A stretch of DNA of 46,502 bases from Verrucomicrobiota bacterium. GTDB taxonomy: Bacteria > Verrucomicrobiota > Verrucomicrobiia > Opitutales > Opitutaceae. The DNA lies in contig JAUWBD010000010.1 of assembly GCA_030605125.1 (NCBI GenBank), positions 1-46,502 on the forward strand, in the 5' to 3' direction. Shown piece after piece: positions 17,888-28,681 of this stretch. A program made the translations under genes and the position numbers. The stretch's first letter is position 1; every line of letters begins with the position of its first letter. A model generated the notes under the pieces. The model was given only the letters and a program-made list of their open reading frames with translations, had not been told where the DNA came from and ran no database searches.

Positions 17888-19963
17888 ATGGCGGTTTCTT
17901 TTCGGACTTCTCCCTCCGCGTTCGCCGTGAACAAATCGCGTCCATTCCATCGCCGGCCGATCGACATCCTCCTTGTCGAGGGCGGCGGCGTGCCCACGGC
18001 GGAGGCGCTGCGGGAGTTTCGCGTCGCCAACACCCTGCACACCGTCGCGGATGGCGCGGAGGCCATGGATTTCTTGCGGCGCCAAGGGCGACACCGGGGG
18101 GCGCCGCGTCCCGACCTGGTGCTTTTCGACCTCGAATCGGCGCGCAAAGACGGGCGCGACGTGCTTGCGGAGATCGAGGCGGATGCGTGCCTGAAACCGA
18201 TTCCCGTCGTGGTGCTCGCCACCGCGAGCGGGAAGGCGGATTCACCCGGCGCCTGCTCCGCCCGCGCTCACCGCCAGATCATCAAGCCGATCGATCTCGA
18301 GCAGCTCGGCCGGGTGGCGCGTTCGCTGGAAAACGTCTGGTTTGAGATCGTCGGCCTGTCGCCCGAGTCTCCTCGGGTGGCGGCGGAGCGTCTTGTCGCC
18401 GAGGAGGGGGAGACGACCCCGGGCATCTGCCGCGTGCTGCTGGTGGAGGACAGCCCCACGGACGCGCGCTTGCTGGAATCGGCCCTGGCCGGTTCGCGCA
18501 CGATGCGGTTTTGCGTCGAGCCGGTGGCGCGGCTGGCCGAGGCCATCGATCGGCTGCGAACGGAGGCTTACGACGTGGTGGTGACCGACCTTTCCTTGCC
18601 CGACAGCGAGGGGGTGGAGACCCTGCGCAAGGTGCTCGAAGCGGCGGGGCGCACGCCGGTCGTCGTCCTGAGCGCGATGGACGACGAGGAGATGGGCCTG
18701 TCGCTGTTGCACGAGGGGGCGCGCGATTGCCTGGTGAAAGGAGAACTCGGAGGGCGGGCGCTCGCGCGCGCGATCCGCCAGGCGGTGGATCGCGCGAAAG
18801 TGGAGGAGCGGCTGCGCCACGCGCAGCGCATGGAGAGCGTGGGCGTGCTGGCCGGAGGGGTGGCCCATGATTTCAACAATCTGCTCACCATCATCCGGGG
18901 GAACGCGGAGCTGATCGCGACCGGGTATTTCGACGCGGTGGCGGGCGCGGGGGCGGCGCGCCAGATCATGGCCGCGGCCGACCGCGGCGCGACGCTCACC
19001 CGCCAGTTGCTGACCTTCAGTCGCCGCGAACGTCTCAAGACGGAGGCGGTGGAGCTGAACGCCACGCTCGCGGAGTTCATGAACATGCTGCGACGCCTGA
19101 TGGGGCCGAACATCCTCGTCACGGACATGCTCTGCGCGGACGCGCTGCCCATGCTGGCGGACCCGGGCATGATCGAGCAGGTGGTGATGAACCTGGCGCT
19201 CAACGCCAAGGACGCGATGCCGGCGGGCGGGCGCCTGACGATCGCGACCGAACGGATTTCGGTGAACGGCGCCGCCGGGGGCGGAGAGCTGGCGCCGCCG
19301 GCGGGACCGGGGCCCTATGCGCTGCTCACCGTGACGGACACCGGCACGGGCATCGCGCGGGACGTGTTGCCGCACGTGTTCGAGCCGTTCTTTACCACGA
19401 AGGAGACGGGCAAGGGCGCGGGGCTGGGGCTGGCGACGGTGTATGGCGTGGTGCGCCAGCACCGGGGCGATGTGCAGGTGAGCAGCGAGCCCGGGCGCGG
19501 CACGGTGTTTCGGTTGCGGCTGCCCTTGGCGGAGGCCGCCGAGGCACGGCCGCCCGCGGGCGCGTCGGTCGCGCCGCGCGGGGCGGGCGAGACGATCCTG
19601 CTGGTCGATGACGAGGAAATGGTGCGGAGCATGGCGGCCTCGGTCTTGCGCATGCAGGGCTACGAGGTGGTGGAGGCCGCGAGCGGCGTGGAGGCTCTGG
19701 CCAGCTGGGGCGAGATCGCGGCGCGGGTGCGTCTGCTCTTCACCGATTTGCTCATGCCGGACGGCATCTCCGGGCGGGACCTCGCGCGCATCCTGGTCGC
19801 GAGAAAGCCGACGCTGCGCGTGGTGTATTCCAGCGGGCACGTCGGCGACCTGCGGCAGGAGCCGCGGCTGGCGGAGGGAGTCCATTTCGTGGCGAAGCCT
19901 TACACGCTCGAAAACCTGGCGCGGACGGTGCACGAGGCCTTGGGGGCCCCGTCCGGAGCGTAA
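17888..19963 (+). CDS. Soluble hybrid histidine kinase with three receiver domains (REC-REC-HK-REC)
   Basis: From the ATG at 17888 it has 691 residues and no membrane segment. Order: a degenerate receiver (about 20-140; ILLVEGGG lacks one acidic residue, but the FDLES Asp and the IKP Lys remain); a second receiver (about 180-295; VLLVEDSPTD, VVTDLSLPDS, CLVKGE); HisKA with GGVAHDFNNLL (His327); HATPase with DTGTGIA, FEPFFTTK and GAGLGLATVYG; and a C-terminal receiver (ILLVDDEE, FTDLLMPDG, VAKPY). The input is not obvious because there is no PAS or transmembrane sensor, so the receivers themselves probably take signals from other kinases, making this a phosphorelay hub. The intact kinases and regulator downstream are likely partners. 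A short gap separates it from the next gene. Confidence 0.85.
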   Translation: MAVSFRTSPSAFAVNKSRPFHRRPIDILLVEGGGVPTAEALREFRVANTLHTVADGAEAMDFLRRQGRHRGAPRPDLVLFDLESARKDGRDVLAEIEADACLKPIPVVVLATASGKADSPGACSARAHRQIIKPIDLEQLGRVARSLENVWFEIVGLSPESPRVAAERLVAEEGETTPGICRVLLVEDSPTDARLLESALAGSRTMRFCVEPVARLAEAIDRLRTEAYDVVVTDLSLPDSEGVETLRKVLEAAGRTPVVVLSAMDDEEMGLSLLHEGARDCLVKGELGGRALARAIRQAVDRAKVEERLRHAQRMESVGVLAGGVAHDFNNLLTIIRGNAELIATGYFDAVAGAGAARQIMAAADRGATLTRQLLTFSRRERLKTEAVELNATLAEFMNMLRRLMGPNILVTDMLCADALPMLADPGMIEQVVMNLALNAKDAMPAGGRLTIATERISVNGAAGGGELAPPAGPGPYALLTVTDTGTGIARDVLPHVFEPFFTTKETGKGAGLGLATVYGVVRQHRGDVQVSSEPGRGTVFRLRLPLAEAAEARPPAGASVAPRGAGETILLVDDEEMVRSMAASVLRMQGYEVVEAASGVEALASWGEIAARVRLLFTDLLMPDGISGRDLARILVARKPTLRVVYSSGHVGDLRQEPRLAEGVHFVAKPYTLENLARTVHEALGAPSGA

Positions 19964-20026
19964 AAACGCTAAGCTCGGCCGGTCCGGCGCTTGCTAGATC
20001 AGCGAGCGCGTGGATAGTTCTCCCGC

Positions 20027-22003
20027 ATGCCCCTGCCCGAGAAAGGCTCCACGCTTCGGATCGCGGTCGGCGGGGCGCTGTTCGTGGTGGTCACGAGCTT
20101 GGTGGTGCTCTGGGGCTGGGCGACGGGGCACGCGGTCGTCACCCGGGTGCATGCGGAGTGGACGTCAACCATGCCGCTCACCGCGGCGACCTTCGCCTTG
20201 GCGGGCGTCTCCCTTCTCGCCTTGACGCAGGCGATGGCGAGCGAGGGCCCGGCATCGCGACGTTGGCGGGGCGCCGCGCTGGCGATCGGGTGCCTCGTGG
20301 CGCTGGTCGGTTCCTGGCGACTGGCGTCGCACCTCGCCGGGCGGGATTTCCCGCTGGATGCCCTGGGCTTCGGCACGGTCGAGGAGGATGACCACATGCC
20401 CTTGCTCACGTCCGTCGGGCTGGCGCTCGCCGGGGCGGCGCTGATGACCAACGCGCGGCGGATTTTCCATCCGCTCGCGCAGACGGCTGCGAGCCTGCTG
20501 CTGCTGCTCGGCTGGCTGGGGCTGACGCGCTATCTTTACGGGGGCGACACGAGAGGGGTGCCCTTTCTCATGTCGATGCCGGCCGCCCTGCTCTTCACCA
20601 CCCTGGGCGTGGGGCTTTTTTTCGCGCGCCCCGACGGGGGCTTCGTGCGCTTGTGGAACAGCACCACGGCCGGCGGCCTGCTTTTGCGGCGCCTGCTTCC
20701 CACGGCGCTGGTCGTGCCGGTGGTCCTGGGCTGGCTCCGCCTCCTCGGCGAGCGGGCGGGCTGGTTCGGCTTGGAGACGGGGCTGGCCATCTTCGCGATG
20801 TCGAATGTGGCGGTCTTCGCCACATTCGCCTGGCGGACCGGCGAGCGCCTGCATCGCGAGGACCTCGCGCGGCGCGAGGCGGAGCGGACCACGCGGGCCG
20901 AGCGGGATTTCTCCAACGCGCTCATCGACAGCCTGCCGGGCATCTTCTACCTCTACACGAAGGAGGGGCGATTCCTGCGCTGGAACCGCAACTTCGAGCG
21001 GGTGAGCGGCTATGGCCCGGAGGAGATCCTGCGGCTGCATCCGCTCGATTTTTTCGCGGAGGAGGAAAAGCCGCTTTTGCGCGAGCGCATCCAGGAGGTC
21101 TTCGCCTGCGGGGCCTCGGAAGTGGAGGCCTGCTTCCTGTCCAAGGCGGGCGTGCGCACCCCGTATTTCTTCACCGGCATCACCGTGGAGTTTCGCGGCG
21201 AGCTTTGTCTCGCGGGCGTCGGTTTCGACATCACGCAGCGGGTCCGGGCCGAGGAGCAAGTGCGCGAGCTGAACGCGGGCCTCGAGCGCCGCGTGGCCGA
21301 GCGCACCGAGGAGCTGGCGGCGAAGAACCGCGAACTGGAGACCTTCACGTATTCGGTTTCCCATGACTTAAAGGCGCCGCTGCGGGGGATCGACGGCTAC
21401 AGCCGGCTCCTGCAGGAGGACTACGCGGACAAGCTCGACGAGGAGGGGCGTCGCTTTCTGGGGTGCGTGCGGCAGGCGAGCCTGCAGATGGCCCAGTTGA
21501 TCGACGACCTGCTGGCCTACTCGCAGGTCGAGCGGCGCACGCTCAAGCTGATCGGGCTTAGTCCGCGCGCGGTGATCGATGCGCTGCCGGAGAGCTTCCA
21601 CGACGAGCTGCGGGCGCGCGGCGTGGCGTTCATGGTCGATCTGCCCGAGGCGCGGGTGCAGGCGGACGCCAGCGGGCTCGGGCAGGTGCTGCGCAACCTG
21701 CTCGACAACGCCCTCAAGTTCACCCGATCGGTCCCCGATCCCCGCATCGAGGTGGGCGGTCGCGTCGAGGCCGACAAGTTCCTGCTTTGGGTGCGGGACA
21801 ACGGCATCGGCTTCGACATGCGTTTCGCGGAGCGGGTCTTCGAGATATTCCAGCGGCTGCATCGCATCGAGGACTACCCCGGCACCGGCATCGGCCTCGC
21901 GATCGTGCGGAAGGCGACGGAGCGGATGGGCGGGCGCGTCTGGGTGGAGAGCGTGCCCGGCCGCGGAACCACCTTTTTTATAGAACTCCCCTTGCACGCA
22001 TGA
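20027..22003 (+). CDS. Membrane PAS sensor histidine kinase
   Basis: A 658-residue protein. The first ~270 residues hold about eight hydrophobic segments (for example IAVGGALFVVVTSLVVLWGW and LLLLLGWLGL) that form a membrane sensor of unrecognised type. Next come one PAS domain (about 295-405; SLPGIFYLYTKEGRFLRWN, FERVSGYGPEEIL), a coiled-coil linker (LNAGLERRVAERTEELAAKNRELE), HisKA with SVSHDLKAPLRG (His446), and HATPase with VRDNGIGFD and GTGIGLAIVRKATERMGG. The kinase core is of the cyanobacterial-phytochrome (Cph1) type, but no bilin-binding GAF/PHY domain exists. Its stop overlaps the start of a CheY-like regulator, so the two are a cognate pair like Cph1-Rcp1. Confidence 0.85.
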   Translation: MPLPEKGSTLRIAVGGALFVVVTSLVVLWGWATGHAVVTRVHAEWTSTMPLTAATFALAGVSLLALTQAMASEGPASRRWRGAALAIGCLVALVGSWRLASHLAGRDFPLDALGFGTVEEDDHMPLLTSVGLALAGAALMTNARRIFHPLAQTAASLLLLLGWLGLTRYLYGGDTRGVPFLMSMPAALLFTTLGVGLFFARPDGGFVRLWNSTTAGGLLLRRLLPTALVVPVVLGWLRLLGERAGWFGLETGLAIFAMSNVAVFATFAWRTGERLHREDLARREAERTTRAERDFSNALIDSLPGIFYLYTKEGRFLRWNRNFERVSGYGPEEILRLHPLDFFAEEEKPLLRERIQEVFACGASEVEACFLSKAGVRTPYFFTGITVEFRGELCLAGVGFDITQRVRAEEQVRELNAGLERRVAERTEELAAKNRELETFTYSVSHDLKAPLRGIDGYSRLLQEDYADKLDEEGRRFLGCVRQASLQMAQLIDDLLAYSQVERRTLKLIGLSPRAVIDALPESFHDELRARGVAFMVDLPEARVQADASGLGQVLRNLLDNALKFTRSVPDPRIEVGGRVEADKFLLWVRDNGIGFDMRFAERVFEIFQRLHRIEDYPGTGIGLAIVRKATERMGGRVWVESVPGRGTTFFIELPLHA

Positions 22004-22425
22004 ACACGCAACCGCCCGTATTGCTCGTCGAGGACAACCCCATGGACGTGGATCTCGCCCTGCGCGCCTTTCGCCGGAGGCGCCTCGCCAATCCCATCGA
22101 GGTGGCGCGCGATGGCGACGAGGCGTTCGCCTGGCTGGCGCGCTGGGAGGCCGGCGAAGTGCTCCCGGCGGTCATCCTGCTCGATCTGAAACTGCCGCGG
22201 GTGGACGGGCTGGAGGTGCTGCGCCGCTTCAAGGCGCATCCGCTCGCCAAGACCGTGCCCGTGGTGGTGCTCACCACCTCGGCCGACAGCGAAGACGTCA
22301 AACGCGCCTACGCGCTTGGGGTGAATTCCTACATCGTAAAGCCGGTGGATTTTGAAAAATTTGTGGAAGTCGCCTCCCAGATCGAAGTGTATTGGACCGT
22401 GCTAAACGCGAGGCCCTCCCCCTGA
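22000..22425 (+). CDS. CheY-like response regulator (Rcp1 type), partner of the upstream kinase
   Basis: A 141-residue single receiver domain. Its ATG at 22000 overlaps the kinase stop (ATGA). Seen: the acidic pair in LLVEDNPMDVDLALRAF, the phosphate-accepting Asp in ILLDLKLPRVDG, Thr/Ser in VVVLTTSAD and Lys in SYIVKPVDFEKF. The DLKLPRVDGLEVLRRFK and SEDVKRAYALGVNSYI blocks are those of Rcp1-type regulators paired with phytochrome-like kinases. It has no output domain, so the signal probably passes by protein contact or phosphotransfer to the adjacent hybrid kinases. Followed after 20 nt by the next kinase gene; likely one operon. Confidence 0.9.
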   Translation: MNTQPPVLLVEDNPMDVDLALRAFRRRRLANPIEVARDGDEAFAWLARWEAGEVLPAVILLDLKLPRVDGLEVLRRFKAHPLAKTVPVVVLTTSADSEDVKRAYALGVNSYIVKPVDFEKFVEVASQIEVYWTVLNARPSP

Positions 22426-22445
22426 GCGCCCCGTCCGCCGTCCCG

Positions 22446-25160
22446 ATGCGCCTCCTTCTCGTAGAAGACAATCCCCAGGACGCCGATCTTGCACGGATCG
22501 AGCTCGCGCGCCGCATGCCCGGCCTGGTCTTGCACTGGGCGCCGACCTTGGAGGCGGCTTGCTCCGCGTTGGAGGGGCGGGAGCCTTTCGACGCGGTCGT
22601 CGCGGACCTGAATCTGCCCGATGGCTCGGGGCTCGACCTCGTGGTGCGTCTGCGCGAACGCGAGACGCACTTGGCGGTGGTGATGCTGACCGGCTCCGGG
22701 GATGAACGCAGCGCGGTCGCGGCGCTCAAAGCCGGCGTGGACGACTACCTGCCCAAGCGCGGAGACTACATCCGGCGTCTGCCCGGCGTGGTGGAGTCGG
22801 CCGTGGCGGCGTTTCGCCTCGGGCTCACGCGCCGCAACCGCCCCCTTCGCGTCCTTTACGCCGAGCACTACGCGGTGGACGCGGACCTGACTCGCCGGCA
22901 TCTCGAGCGCCACGCTCCGCACATCCGCCTCGAAGTGGTGCAGTCGGCGGAGGAGGTCCGGCGGCTCCTCGACGAGCAGCCGCTGGCCTATGACGTGGTG
23001 TTGCTCGACTACCGTCTCGCCGGGGCCAGCGCGCTCGACTTGTTGCGCTCTCTCGCCGTGGACGGCGCGCAGCGGCATCCGGTGATTTTGGTCACGGGGC
23101 AGGGGGACGAGGGCGTGGCGTTGGAGGCGCTGCGACTCGGCGCCACCGATTACCTCGTGAAGCGCCCGGGCTATCTGCACGAGATCGCGCCCACGATCGA
23201 AAGCGCGTTTCATCGCGCGCAGGTGGGCCGCGAGCGCGCGGCGCTTCGGGCCAGCGAGGCTTCGCGACGTCTGCGCGAGGAGGCGATCGAGACCCTGCCC
23301 ACCGGTGTGGTCCTCGCCGACGCGCAGCGCCGGACGGTTTACGTGAACCCCGCCTTCACGCGGCTCACCGGCTACGAACCTCCGGAGGCGATCGGGCGCA
23401 GCTGCGCCTTTCTGCAAGGCCCCCTCACGTCCAAGCCGGAGCTGGAGACCATGCGAAACGCCCTGGATGAAGGGCGCGCCTACGAGGGAGAGCTGCTCAA
23501 CTACCGCCGCGATGGCAGCACCTTTTGGAACCATGTTTCCATCACCCCGGTGCGCGACGAGACGGGGCGCGTCATCAATCACGTGGGCGTGCTGAGGGAT
23601 GTGACGGAGCGTCGCCAGACGGAGGAGGCGTTGCGCCAGAGCGAGGAGCGTTTCCGCCTGATCGCGGAGAACCTCCACGAGGTGTTTTGGCTGACCGATC
23701 CCGAGCGGCACACGATGCTCTACATCAGCCCCGCCTACGAGAGCATCTGGGGGCGGCCTTGCGCCGAAATCCTGGCGCGCCCGTCCAACTGGCTGCATGC
23801 GGTGCACCCGGACGACCGGGAGCGCGTGGCCGCCGCCTCGCGCGGGCAGAGCCGCGGCGACTACAACGAGACCTACCGCATCGTGCGTCCCGACGGCACG
23901 ATCCGCTGGGTGCGAGACCGCGCCTTTCCGATCCGCGACTCCGCCGGCGTGGTGAAGCGAATCGTCGGCACCGCGGAGGACATCACCGAGCACCGCCTGC
24001 TCGAGGAGCAGTTCATGCAGGCGCAGAAGATGGAGGCGATCGGCACGCTCGCCGGCGGGATCGCGCATGATTTCAACAACATCCTCGCCGCGATCACCGG
24101 CTACACGGAGCTGCTGCAGATGCAGGTGCAGGGCAGCTCGCCGCAGGTGGATTCCTACCTGCGCGCGCTTTCCCAGGCCGGCGCGCGCGCCACCGCGTTG
24201 GTGCGGCAGATCCTCGCGTTCAGCCGGCCGGGTCGCCACGAGCGCAAGCCGGTCAACCTGGCCAAGGTGGTCGAGGAGCCGCTGGCCCTGCTGCGGGCGA
24301 CGGTGCCCGCCACGATCGAGATGGACCTCGACGTGACGGAGGAGCTGCCGCCGGTCCTCGCCGACGCCACGCAGGTGCACCAGGTCCTGATGAATCTCGG
24401 TGCCAACGCCGCCCATGCCATGGGGAGCCGGCCGGGCCGTTTCGGCGTGAAGCTGCAGGCGGTCGAGGTCGGCCTCGACGAATTCAACGCGGACGGACGT
24501 CTGCGTCCTGGTCGCTATGTCCGCATCTCGGTCAGCGACACCGGCCATGGCATGTCCCGCGAGGTGATGGATCACATCTTCGAGCCTTTCTACACCACCA
24601 AGGCTCCCGGGGAGGGCACGGGGCTCGGCCTTTCCGTCGTGCACGGCGTGATGCAGGCTCACGAGGGCGCGGTGCGAGTCCGGAGCGAGGTGGGCGCGGG
24701 CACGGTTTTCGACCTCTACTTCCCGGTTCACGCTCCCCGCCCCGCGCCTCGCCAGATCGGCGAGCCGCGCCCGCTCCCTCAGGGGGCGGGCGAGCGGGTG
24801 CTGCTGGTGGATGACGAGGAATCAATCCTCCAAGTCACGAGCATGATGCTCTCGCAGCTCGGCTACAAGGTAGAGGCGAGCTCTAGCAGCGCGGGAACCC
24901 TCGCCCGGCTGCGGGAGCGGCCGGAGGAGGTGGATCTGGTGGTGAGCGATGTGTCGATGCCCGGCATGAGCGGCCCCGAGCTGGCGGCCGAGTTGGTGAA
25001 ATTGAGGCCCGGCCTGCCGATCGTGCTGATGACGGGCTACGACGCGACGCTCGATCCCGCGCGCCTGCGCGAGCTCGGCGTGACGGAGGTGCTCGCCAAG
25101 CCATTCACCGCGCGCGATCTCGCCCATGCGGTGCGGCGAGCGATGCGCGCGCGGGCGTGA
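22446..25160 (+). CDS. Hybrid histidine kinase with two N-terminal receivers, a LOV-like PAS and a second PAS
   Basis: From the ATG at 22446 it has 904 residues; a TTG 54 nt earlier adds nothing recognisable. Order: receiver 1 (LLLVEDNPQDADL, VVADLNLPDG), receiver 2 (VLYAEHYAVDADL, LLDYRLAGA, YLVKRP), PAS 1 (about 285-395), PAS 2 (about 405-525; LYISPAYESIWG, RIVRPDGTIRWVRDRAFPI), HisKA with GGIAHDFNNIL (His541), HATPase with VSDTGHGMS, FEPFYTTK and GTGLGLSVVHG, and receiver 3 (VLLVDDEES, VVSDVSMPGMSG, AKPFTARDL). PAS 1 has a LOV-like GRSCAFLQG (Cys320) and NYRRDGSTFWN, the flavin-pocket pattern of blue-light sensors. No membrane segment. It is in the same operon direction as the regulator and kinases upstream. 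Confidence 0.85.
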   Translation: MRLLLVEDNPQDADLARIELARRMPGLVLHWAPTLEAACSALEGREPFDAVVADLNLPDGSGLDLVVRLRERETHLAVVMLTGSGDERSAVAALKAGVDDYLPKRGDYIRRLPGVVESAVAAFRLGLTRRNRPLRVLYAEHYAVDADLTRRHLERHAPHIRLEVVQSAEEVRRLLDEQPLAYDVVLLDYRLAGASALDLLRSLAVDGAQRHPVILVTGQGDEGVALEALRLGATDYLVKRPGYLHEIAPTIESAFHRAQVGRERAALRASEASRRLREEAIETLPTGVVLADAQRRTVYVNPAFTRLTGYEPPEAIGRSCAFLQGPLTSKPELETMRNALDEGRAYEGELLNYRRDGSTFWNHVSITPVRDETGRVINHVGVLRDVTERRQTEEALRQSEERFRLIAENLHEVFWLTDPERHTMLYISPAYESIWGRPCAEILARPSNWLHAVHPDDRERVAAASRGQSRGDYNETYRIVRPDGTIRWVRDRAFPIRDSAGVVKRIVGTAEDITEHRLLEEQFMQAQKMEAIGTLAGGIAHDFNNILAAITGYTELLQMQVQGSSPQVDSYLRALSQAGARATALVRQILAFSRPGRHERKPVNLAKVVEEPLALLRATVPATIEMDLDVTEELPPVLADATQVHQVLMNLGANAAHAMGSRPGRFGVKLQAVEVGLDEFNADGRLRPGRYVRISVSDTGHGMSREVMDHIFEPFYTTKAPGEGTGLGLSVVHGVMQAHEGAVRVRSEVGAGTVFDLYFPVHAPRPAPRQIGEPRPLPQGAGERVLLVDDEESILQVTSMMLSQLGYKVEASSSSAGTLARLRERPEEVDLVVSDVSMPGMSGPELAAELVKLRPGLPIVLMTGYDATLDPARLRELGVTEVLAKPFTARDLAHAVRRAMRARA

Positions 25161-25212
25161 GCGCCCGGCATCTTTGATCGATACGGCGCCGGGGCTGCCG
25201 CGGGTTCCAGGC

Positions 25213-28614
<3,402 letters not shown>

Positions 28615-28681
28615 TGGGGCTGGAGGTTGACGCTTTACAAGGAGTGTTTCGCGACGGAGCGCTTGGCAAGGACCCACCAGC

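Follow-up and report, generated by a model that had tools for sequence, protein, structure and literature searches.

The locus considered here raises the question of whether a PAS domain that has a candidate flavin-adduct cysteine, and leucine in place of the LOV active-site glutamine, is the input of a blue-light-regulated kinase. It lies in the window, by which we mean the whole stretch of 46,502 nucleotides analysed from a Verrucomicrobiota bacterium (contig JAUWBD010000010.1). The most likely identity of the protein, to which we give a probability of roughly 0.6 on the basis of its sequence and a structural model, is a photoactive hybrid kinase with a glutamine-less LOV domain. Its sequence, conservation, predicted fold, and neighbourhood are described directly below, and from them we infer what is said of flavin binding, light response, photochemistry, signalling, and partners.

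The hybrid kinase and its putative flavin pocket

The open reading frame at 22446..25160 on the forward strand encodes 904 amino acids in the order REC-REC-LOV-PAS-HisKA-HATPase-REC, as read from translation, Pfam (three REC, two PAS, one HisKA, and one HATPase_c match), and motif positions, with phosphosites assigned by motif to Asp54, Asp188, His541, and Asp835. An alternative TTG start at 22392 is also possible, and the orthologues have a methionine aligned with the ATG at 22446. The first PAS domain (residues 277-402; 23274..23651, +) is LOV-like and is delimited by a PAS_9 match, orthologue alignment, and predicted structure. The second (23688..24023, +), found with Pfam and a genome search, lies between the LOV domain and HisKA and is weakly conserved, with 12 of 107 columns invariant.

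Translation and alignment confirm the three motifs that the initial annotation had singled out. GRSCAFLQG, beginning at residue 317, places Cys320 (TGC codon 23403..23405, +) at the adduct position, C62 of YtvA; NYRRDGSTFWN, beginning at residue 352, supplies Asn352 and Asn362; and HVGVLRDVT, beginning at residue 379, puts Leu383 (CTG codon 23592..23594, +) where the active-site glutamine would stand on Iβ, at a spacing from Cys320 of 63 residues, as for YtvA C62/Q123. In the alignment with YtvA and AsLOV2, Gln324, Arg337, Asn352, Asn362, and Leu383 correspond to Q66, R79, N94, N104, and Q123 (YtvA numbering), and the LOV asparagine pair of Gβ and Hβ, the FLQ glutamine, and the Fα arginine are thus all present. 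Relative to YtvA, the domain keeps G59, C62, F64, L65, Q66, R79, N94, and N104 and has a loop three residues shorter; besides Q123 it has lost N61 (Ser319) and R63 (Ala321), two changes that the earlier description of the pocket had overlooked. The full GXNCRFLQ motif is absent, the window reading GRSCAFLQ with N and R substituted; that motif is a common search filter and no functional requirement.

Six full-length orthologues (L002/L099, L003/L100, L004/L101, L076/L102, L077/L103, and L078/L104) were found among 95 relatives and 252 genomes of the family; they are 46-75% identical over the full length, and the frame of L102 extends to the contig end. In all seven proteins, the window's included, the equivalents of Q66, R79, N94, and N104 are kept together with Cys320, which alone of the kinase's three cysteines is conserved in 7/7. 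R63 occurs in none, N61 in two, and F64 in three, and the Q123 place holds Gln in three, Leu in three, and Ser in one: glutamine in the nearest relative, L002, which is 68% identical to the window within the domain, leucine in L077 and L078 as in the window, and serine in L076. The LOV domain is about as well conserved as the two N-terminal receivers (39/114 invariant columns, compared with 44/115 in REC1 and 45/124 in REC2); the corresponding counts are 27/63 in HisKA, 39/119 in HATPase, and 16/102 in REC3. Against a chance motif speak the constancy of the cysteine, Q66, R79, N94, and N104, the PAS_9 score of 94.6 bits, the best in the organism's own genome, and the PDB sequence matches, for the most part to LOV domains with flavin (best E 1.6e-29). 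The non-LOV MmoS structure 3ewk is among the top three of those matches. The conserved residues described in PMC10468136 for FMN-binding PAS domains are Arg, Cys, and Asn, a triad present here, and those for FAD-binding ones include a Trp on Fα.

Leu383 excludes the canonical LOV class and leaves the LOV-deltaQ class, because the glutamine has been published as dispensable (PMC9098866). Glutamine-less LOV domains are already published as a kind (LOV-deltaQ; Dietler et al. 2022), some 350 natural proteins being listed, with Leu and Ile predominating (PMC9098866). The window domain shares with these receptors the adduct cysteine, both asparagines, and leucine for glutamine, the predominant replacement there, and differs from them in also lacking N61 and R63, in its shorter loop, and in its REC-REC-LOV-PAS-kinase-REC arrangement. 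It would fail the published filter, which needs at least eight of nine residues (PMC9098866), since it has seven (G59, C62, F64, L65, Q66, N94, and N104).

Predicted fold and placement among related domains

A scan of genome contigs gave 45 related loci with no Cys domain above 60 bits, which were therefore used as depth for a structural model. The flavin-free domain model, built from 14 sequences of at most 38% identity to the window domain, has a pLDDT of 94.7 and a pTM of 0.85. In it Cys320 (model residue 53) starts a short helix, the two asparagines (85 and 95) occupy consecutive strands, and the last strand bears Leu383 (116); the aligned ranges suggest that residues 53 and 116 face C85 and Q148 of CagFbFP. 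By title, LOV domains make up all 50 of the Foldseek matches listed and 48 of the 50 VIA-align rows listed. MrLOV (9vf7) is the best match in both sequence (44% identity) and structure (Z 21.4; 1.1 Å over 125 residues), CagFbFP reaches Z 20.6 (0.7 Å, 104 residues), and good fits are also obtained for the EAG1 PAS (Z 19.1) and the NifL FAD-PAS (Z 18.9). The best matches of the model are thus flavin LOV structures, and nothing in it refutes the initial annotation on structural grounds; a LOV-like fold by itself does not show flavin, and AlphaFold has been exposed to many LOV structures. Unlike the window domain, 9vf7 has the canonical motif and the glutamine. Brucella LOV-HK (6ph2, 6pps, and 6ph4), which like the window kinase has a LOV domain followed by a PAS and a kinase core, presumably has the canonical motif and glutamine as well, and we take both it and MrLOV to be without the N-terminal receivers that the window kinase has.

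The tree comprises 93 rows and 117 columns; only columns 43-46, 86, and 107 (N61 to F64, N104, and Q123) were excluded, and those of Q66, R79, and N94 were retained. The window and its orthologues form a starred clade of seven rows (98/91) in a short-loop branch separate from the classical LOVs, with two further starred short-loop clades nearby, and YtvA, AsLOV2, CagFbFP, and 9vf7 group with the family's long-loop domains (82/82, unstarred). In the best tree, one branch sets apart every Cys row along with four Cys-less ones nested among these, and the window is on this Cys/LOV side with weak support (72/86, unstarred). Two alternative placements of the window clade, with 24 Cys-less PAS rows (p 0.25) and with the classical LOVs (p 0.16), both survive the AU test, and pocket residues therefore carry more of the case for a LOV affiliation than the tree does. 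The LOV reading of the initial annotation stands, as does the change from glutamine to leucine; the phylogenetic check proposed with it points weakly the same way and leaves the grouping with non-Cys PAS domains in play. One of the two nearby starred short-loop clades, of nine rows (98/91; L082, L081, L083, L084, L086, L087, L109, L131, and L132) has the cysteine in eight and the glutamine in none, mostly with Thr instead; L109 comes from another family of the class. The minimum number of changes is at least six for Gln/not-Gln among Cys rows and four for the cysteine over the whole tree.

A wider survey drew on the 95 relatives, the 252 family genomes, 387 phylum genomes, and other loci, with 181 aligned matches reduced to 87 non-redundant domains by removal of duplicates and of matches of 60 bits or less. 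The cysteine is present in 32 of the 87, an over-representation because loci were selected for similarity to the query. Asn104 accompanies it in 27 of these 32 and occurs in 5 of the 55 Cys-less domains (27/5/5/50; Fisher p 1e-12, not independent of descent), and an independent-pairs test gave nothing significant, with only four independent pairs on the tree. In 20 Cys domains the loop is short, 10 residues by our own count, compared with 13 in YtvA, AsLOV2, and 9vf7 and 12 in CagFbFP. At the glutamine place these 20 have Gln in eight, Thr in five, Leu in four, Ser in two, and Asn in one (12/20 without Gln), and the Cys domains with a 13-residue loop have Gln in 9 of 11, one further Cys row being incomplete. 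Three short-loop domains (L089, L091, and L098) keep both Cys and Gln and have Asp and Ser in place of the two flavin asparagines, and to judge from them the cysteine can persist without a full pocket.

Several domains depart from these patterns. In L007 (G034:C1:5896540-5896893), which reads GRNARFLQ ... VGTCTDVT, with Ala at the adduct position and Cys at the glutamine place, the cysteine looks to have crossed to the other side of the flavin. L128 and L140 (G230), similar to each other, keep both asparagines but have Pro at the adduct position and Met at the glutamine place; they are candidate Cys-less LOVs. A plasmid search matched 834 records, all below 60% identity, and the domains read from 5 of the 12 records listed comprise two canonical-motif LOVs, one short-loop Cys domain without Asn104, and two Cys-less domains. 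One canonical-motif LOV, on an Azospirillum plasmid (L154), keeps the adduct Cys and has Cys in the glutamine place as well. The short-loop domain belongs to a GGDEF protein on a plasmid of Deinococcus sp. NW-56 (L153:1492-2289), reads GRTCRFLQG, and has Gln, with Tyr at the Asn104 place; short-loop Cys domains thus extend to another phylum.

It is conceivable, and we put it forward tentatively, that the short-loop domains make up a LOV photoreceptor branch of their own, either sister to the classical LOVs or unconnected with them in origin, in which the cysteine is kept and the glutamine and phosphate arginine vary freely. Such a branch would amount to natural Gln-free blue-light signalling that common motif filters miss, perhaps with a flavin other than FMN. 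A literature search on this LOV kinase family and its short loop gave nothing that we use here, from which we claim no absence from print.

Competing explanations and a possible light signal

The simplest objection, that an otherwise ordinary LOV domain shows Leu383 because of a mistake in sequencing or assembly, draws on the single base that separates CTG from the glutamine codon CAG and on the glutamine of L002; it is very improbable, given that L077 and L078 share the leucine, that L076 has Ser there, and that none of the nine sister-clade rows has Gln. A degenerate LOV descendant is also to be considered, a flavin-free domain with another ligand or none, in which the cysteine is a relic and the domain a relay between the receivers and the kinase. 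Of the seven polar contacts that LOV domains usually make to flavin, three differ here; R63 is missing from all seven proteins, a related Cys-bearing clade has lost both asparagines, and the LOV-like PAS of the adjacent protein at 25213-28644 has no cysteine. Drift would be expected of a relic pocket, but five pocket residues are invariant among the orthologues and conservation of the domain is close to that of REC1 and REC2, and we regard degeneration as unlikely.

Rather unlikely, too, is a flavin-bound redox or oxygen sensor like NifL or MmoS, in which the cysteine would tune flavin chemistry or serve as a redox thiol. Hybrid kinases often contain redox PAS domains, the NifL FAD-PAS fits the model well, and loss of the glutamine would weaken adduct signalling; the PAS fold is shared, and the MmoS row has an asparagine at the N94 place. 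FAD redox PAS domains, however, have a Trp on Fα in the account of PMC10468136, and the window has Arg337 there; the adduct cysteine that NifL and MmoS lack is present together with both LOV asparagines, and the MmoS-like rows lie across a starred branch (100/99). The NifL/MmoS-type FAD redox class was rejected on the Fα residue.

On the preferred reading, that of a light-responsive LOV domain without glutamine, the first PAS would bind flavin, either FMN or, because the phosphate arginine is missing, perhaps riboflavin or FAD. Blue light would produce an adduct between Cys320 and flavin C4a, and the signal of N5 protonation would reach the last β strand without the glutamine, perhaps via water as proposed for LOV-deltaQ proteins. 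From there it would pass through the linker helix and the second PAS to the HisKA-HATPase core and shift the kinase/phosphatase balance, with phosphoryl flow to the kinase's own C-terminal receiver and perhaps also to the adjacent REC protein. A blue shift in absorbance of about 10 nm would be expected, Leu383 would slow dark recovery, and Ser319 would speed it; these opposing effects may leave the net rate ordinary.

Precedents for these steps exist. With Gln replaced by Leu, flavin binding and adduct formation persist in YF1 and AsLOV2, which recover 10- and 22-fold more slowly, and the YF1, AsLOV2, and NmPAL variants keep light responses that are often weaker; a natural Gln-less LOV-GGDEF protein is light-regulated (PMC9098866). 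The initial annotation's proposal of altered signalling is thus possible, but such variants, as described there, still signal. AsLOV2 N449S, the counterpart of Ser319, recovers about 60-fold faster (PMC10751770), and in PpSB1-LOV mutation of two other phosphate arginines made recovery 280-fold faster (PMC5314338). Given that N61 and R63 are lost, the latter in 7/7, flavin may bind weakly, and weak loading is a real risk because W619_1-LOV, its arginines intact, was only about 10% flavin-loaded on purification (PMC5314338).

The dispensability of the glutamine is known mainly from engineered variants and one natural protein (PMC9098866). Here the relatives within one family vary at that place and all keep the cysteine, and a pair such as the window (Leu) and L002 (Gln) could for that reason reveal natural compensation. 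If these proteins are photoactive, the GXNCRFLQ and eight-of-nine filters undercount photoreceptors.

Neighbouring genes and the rest of the genome

Directly 5' of the hybrid kinase lies a single-REC, Rcp1-like response regulator (22000..22425, +; Pfam), whose start is overlapped by the stop of a PAS-HisKA-HATPase_c kinase (20027..22003, +; Pfam). The initial annotation had seen in them a phytochrome-type kinase/Rcp1 pair without bilin domains, in keeping with light sensing. The pair is a real conserved neighbourhood: a single-REC relative, 71-83% identical, is directly upstream in all six orthologue loci, and a relative of the kinase precedes it in five, the contig of the sixth (L103) starting at the REC gene, after the kinase position. 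The upstream kinase has no GAF or PHY match (Pfam, E 0.001), hence no bilin domain by which it would count as a phytochrome, and nothing in the pair itself is evidence of light sensing. A scan of 19800-25300 for sigma-70 promoters found none.

The true bacteriophytochrome is elsewhere: the genome has one PHY protein, a PAS_2-GAF-PHY-HisKA-HATPase kinase on another contig (L130:6995-9304, -; contig C20), and the organism therefore probably has a second light sense. BLUF had no match in the genome. A search with the LOV alignment gave 17 matches at E 1e-8, and among the 20 domain matches read only the window domain has the cysteine, the one Cys-bearing LOV found in the genome.

Adjacent and convergent to the LOV kinase is a CHASE hybrid kinase (25213-28644, -) with a LOV-like PAS at 27157-27513. 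It shares PAS_9 and the FLQG and NY motifs with the window domain (GRSPGSFLQG and NYHKSGVPYW), differs in having neither the cysteine nor Asn104, and falls within a starred Cys-less clade of 24 rows (98/96). At one orthologue locus (L102:4152-6298, G256) the upstream kinase is split between two open frames that overlap, which may reflect a frameshift or an assembly error, and at another (L104:6622-11485, G273) the orthologue stands beside an extra REC gene and a second set of kinase, REC, and hybrid kinase like the trio of the window.
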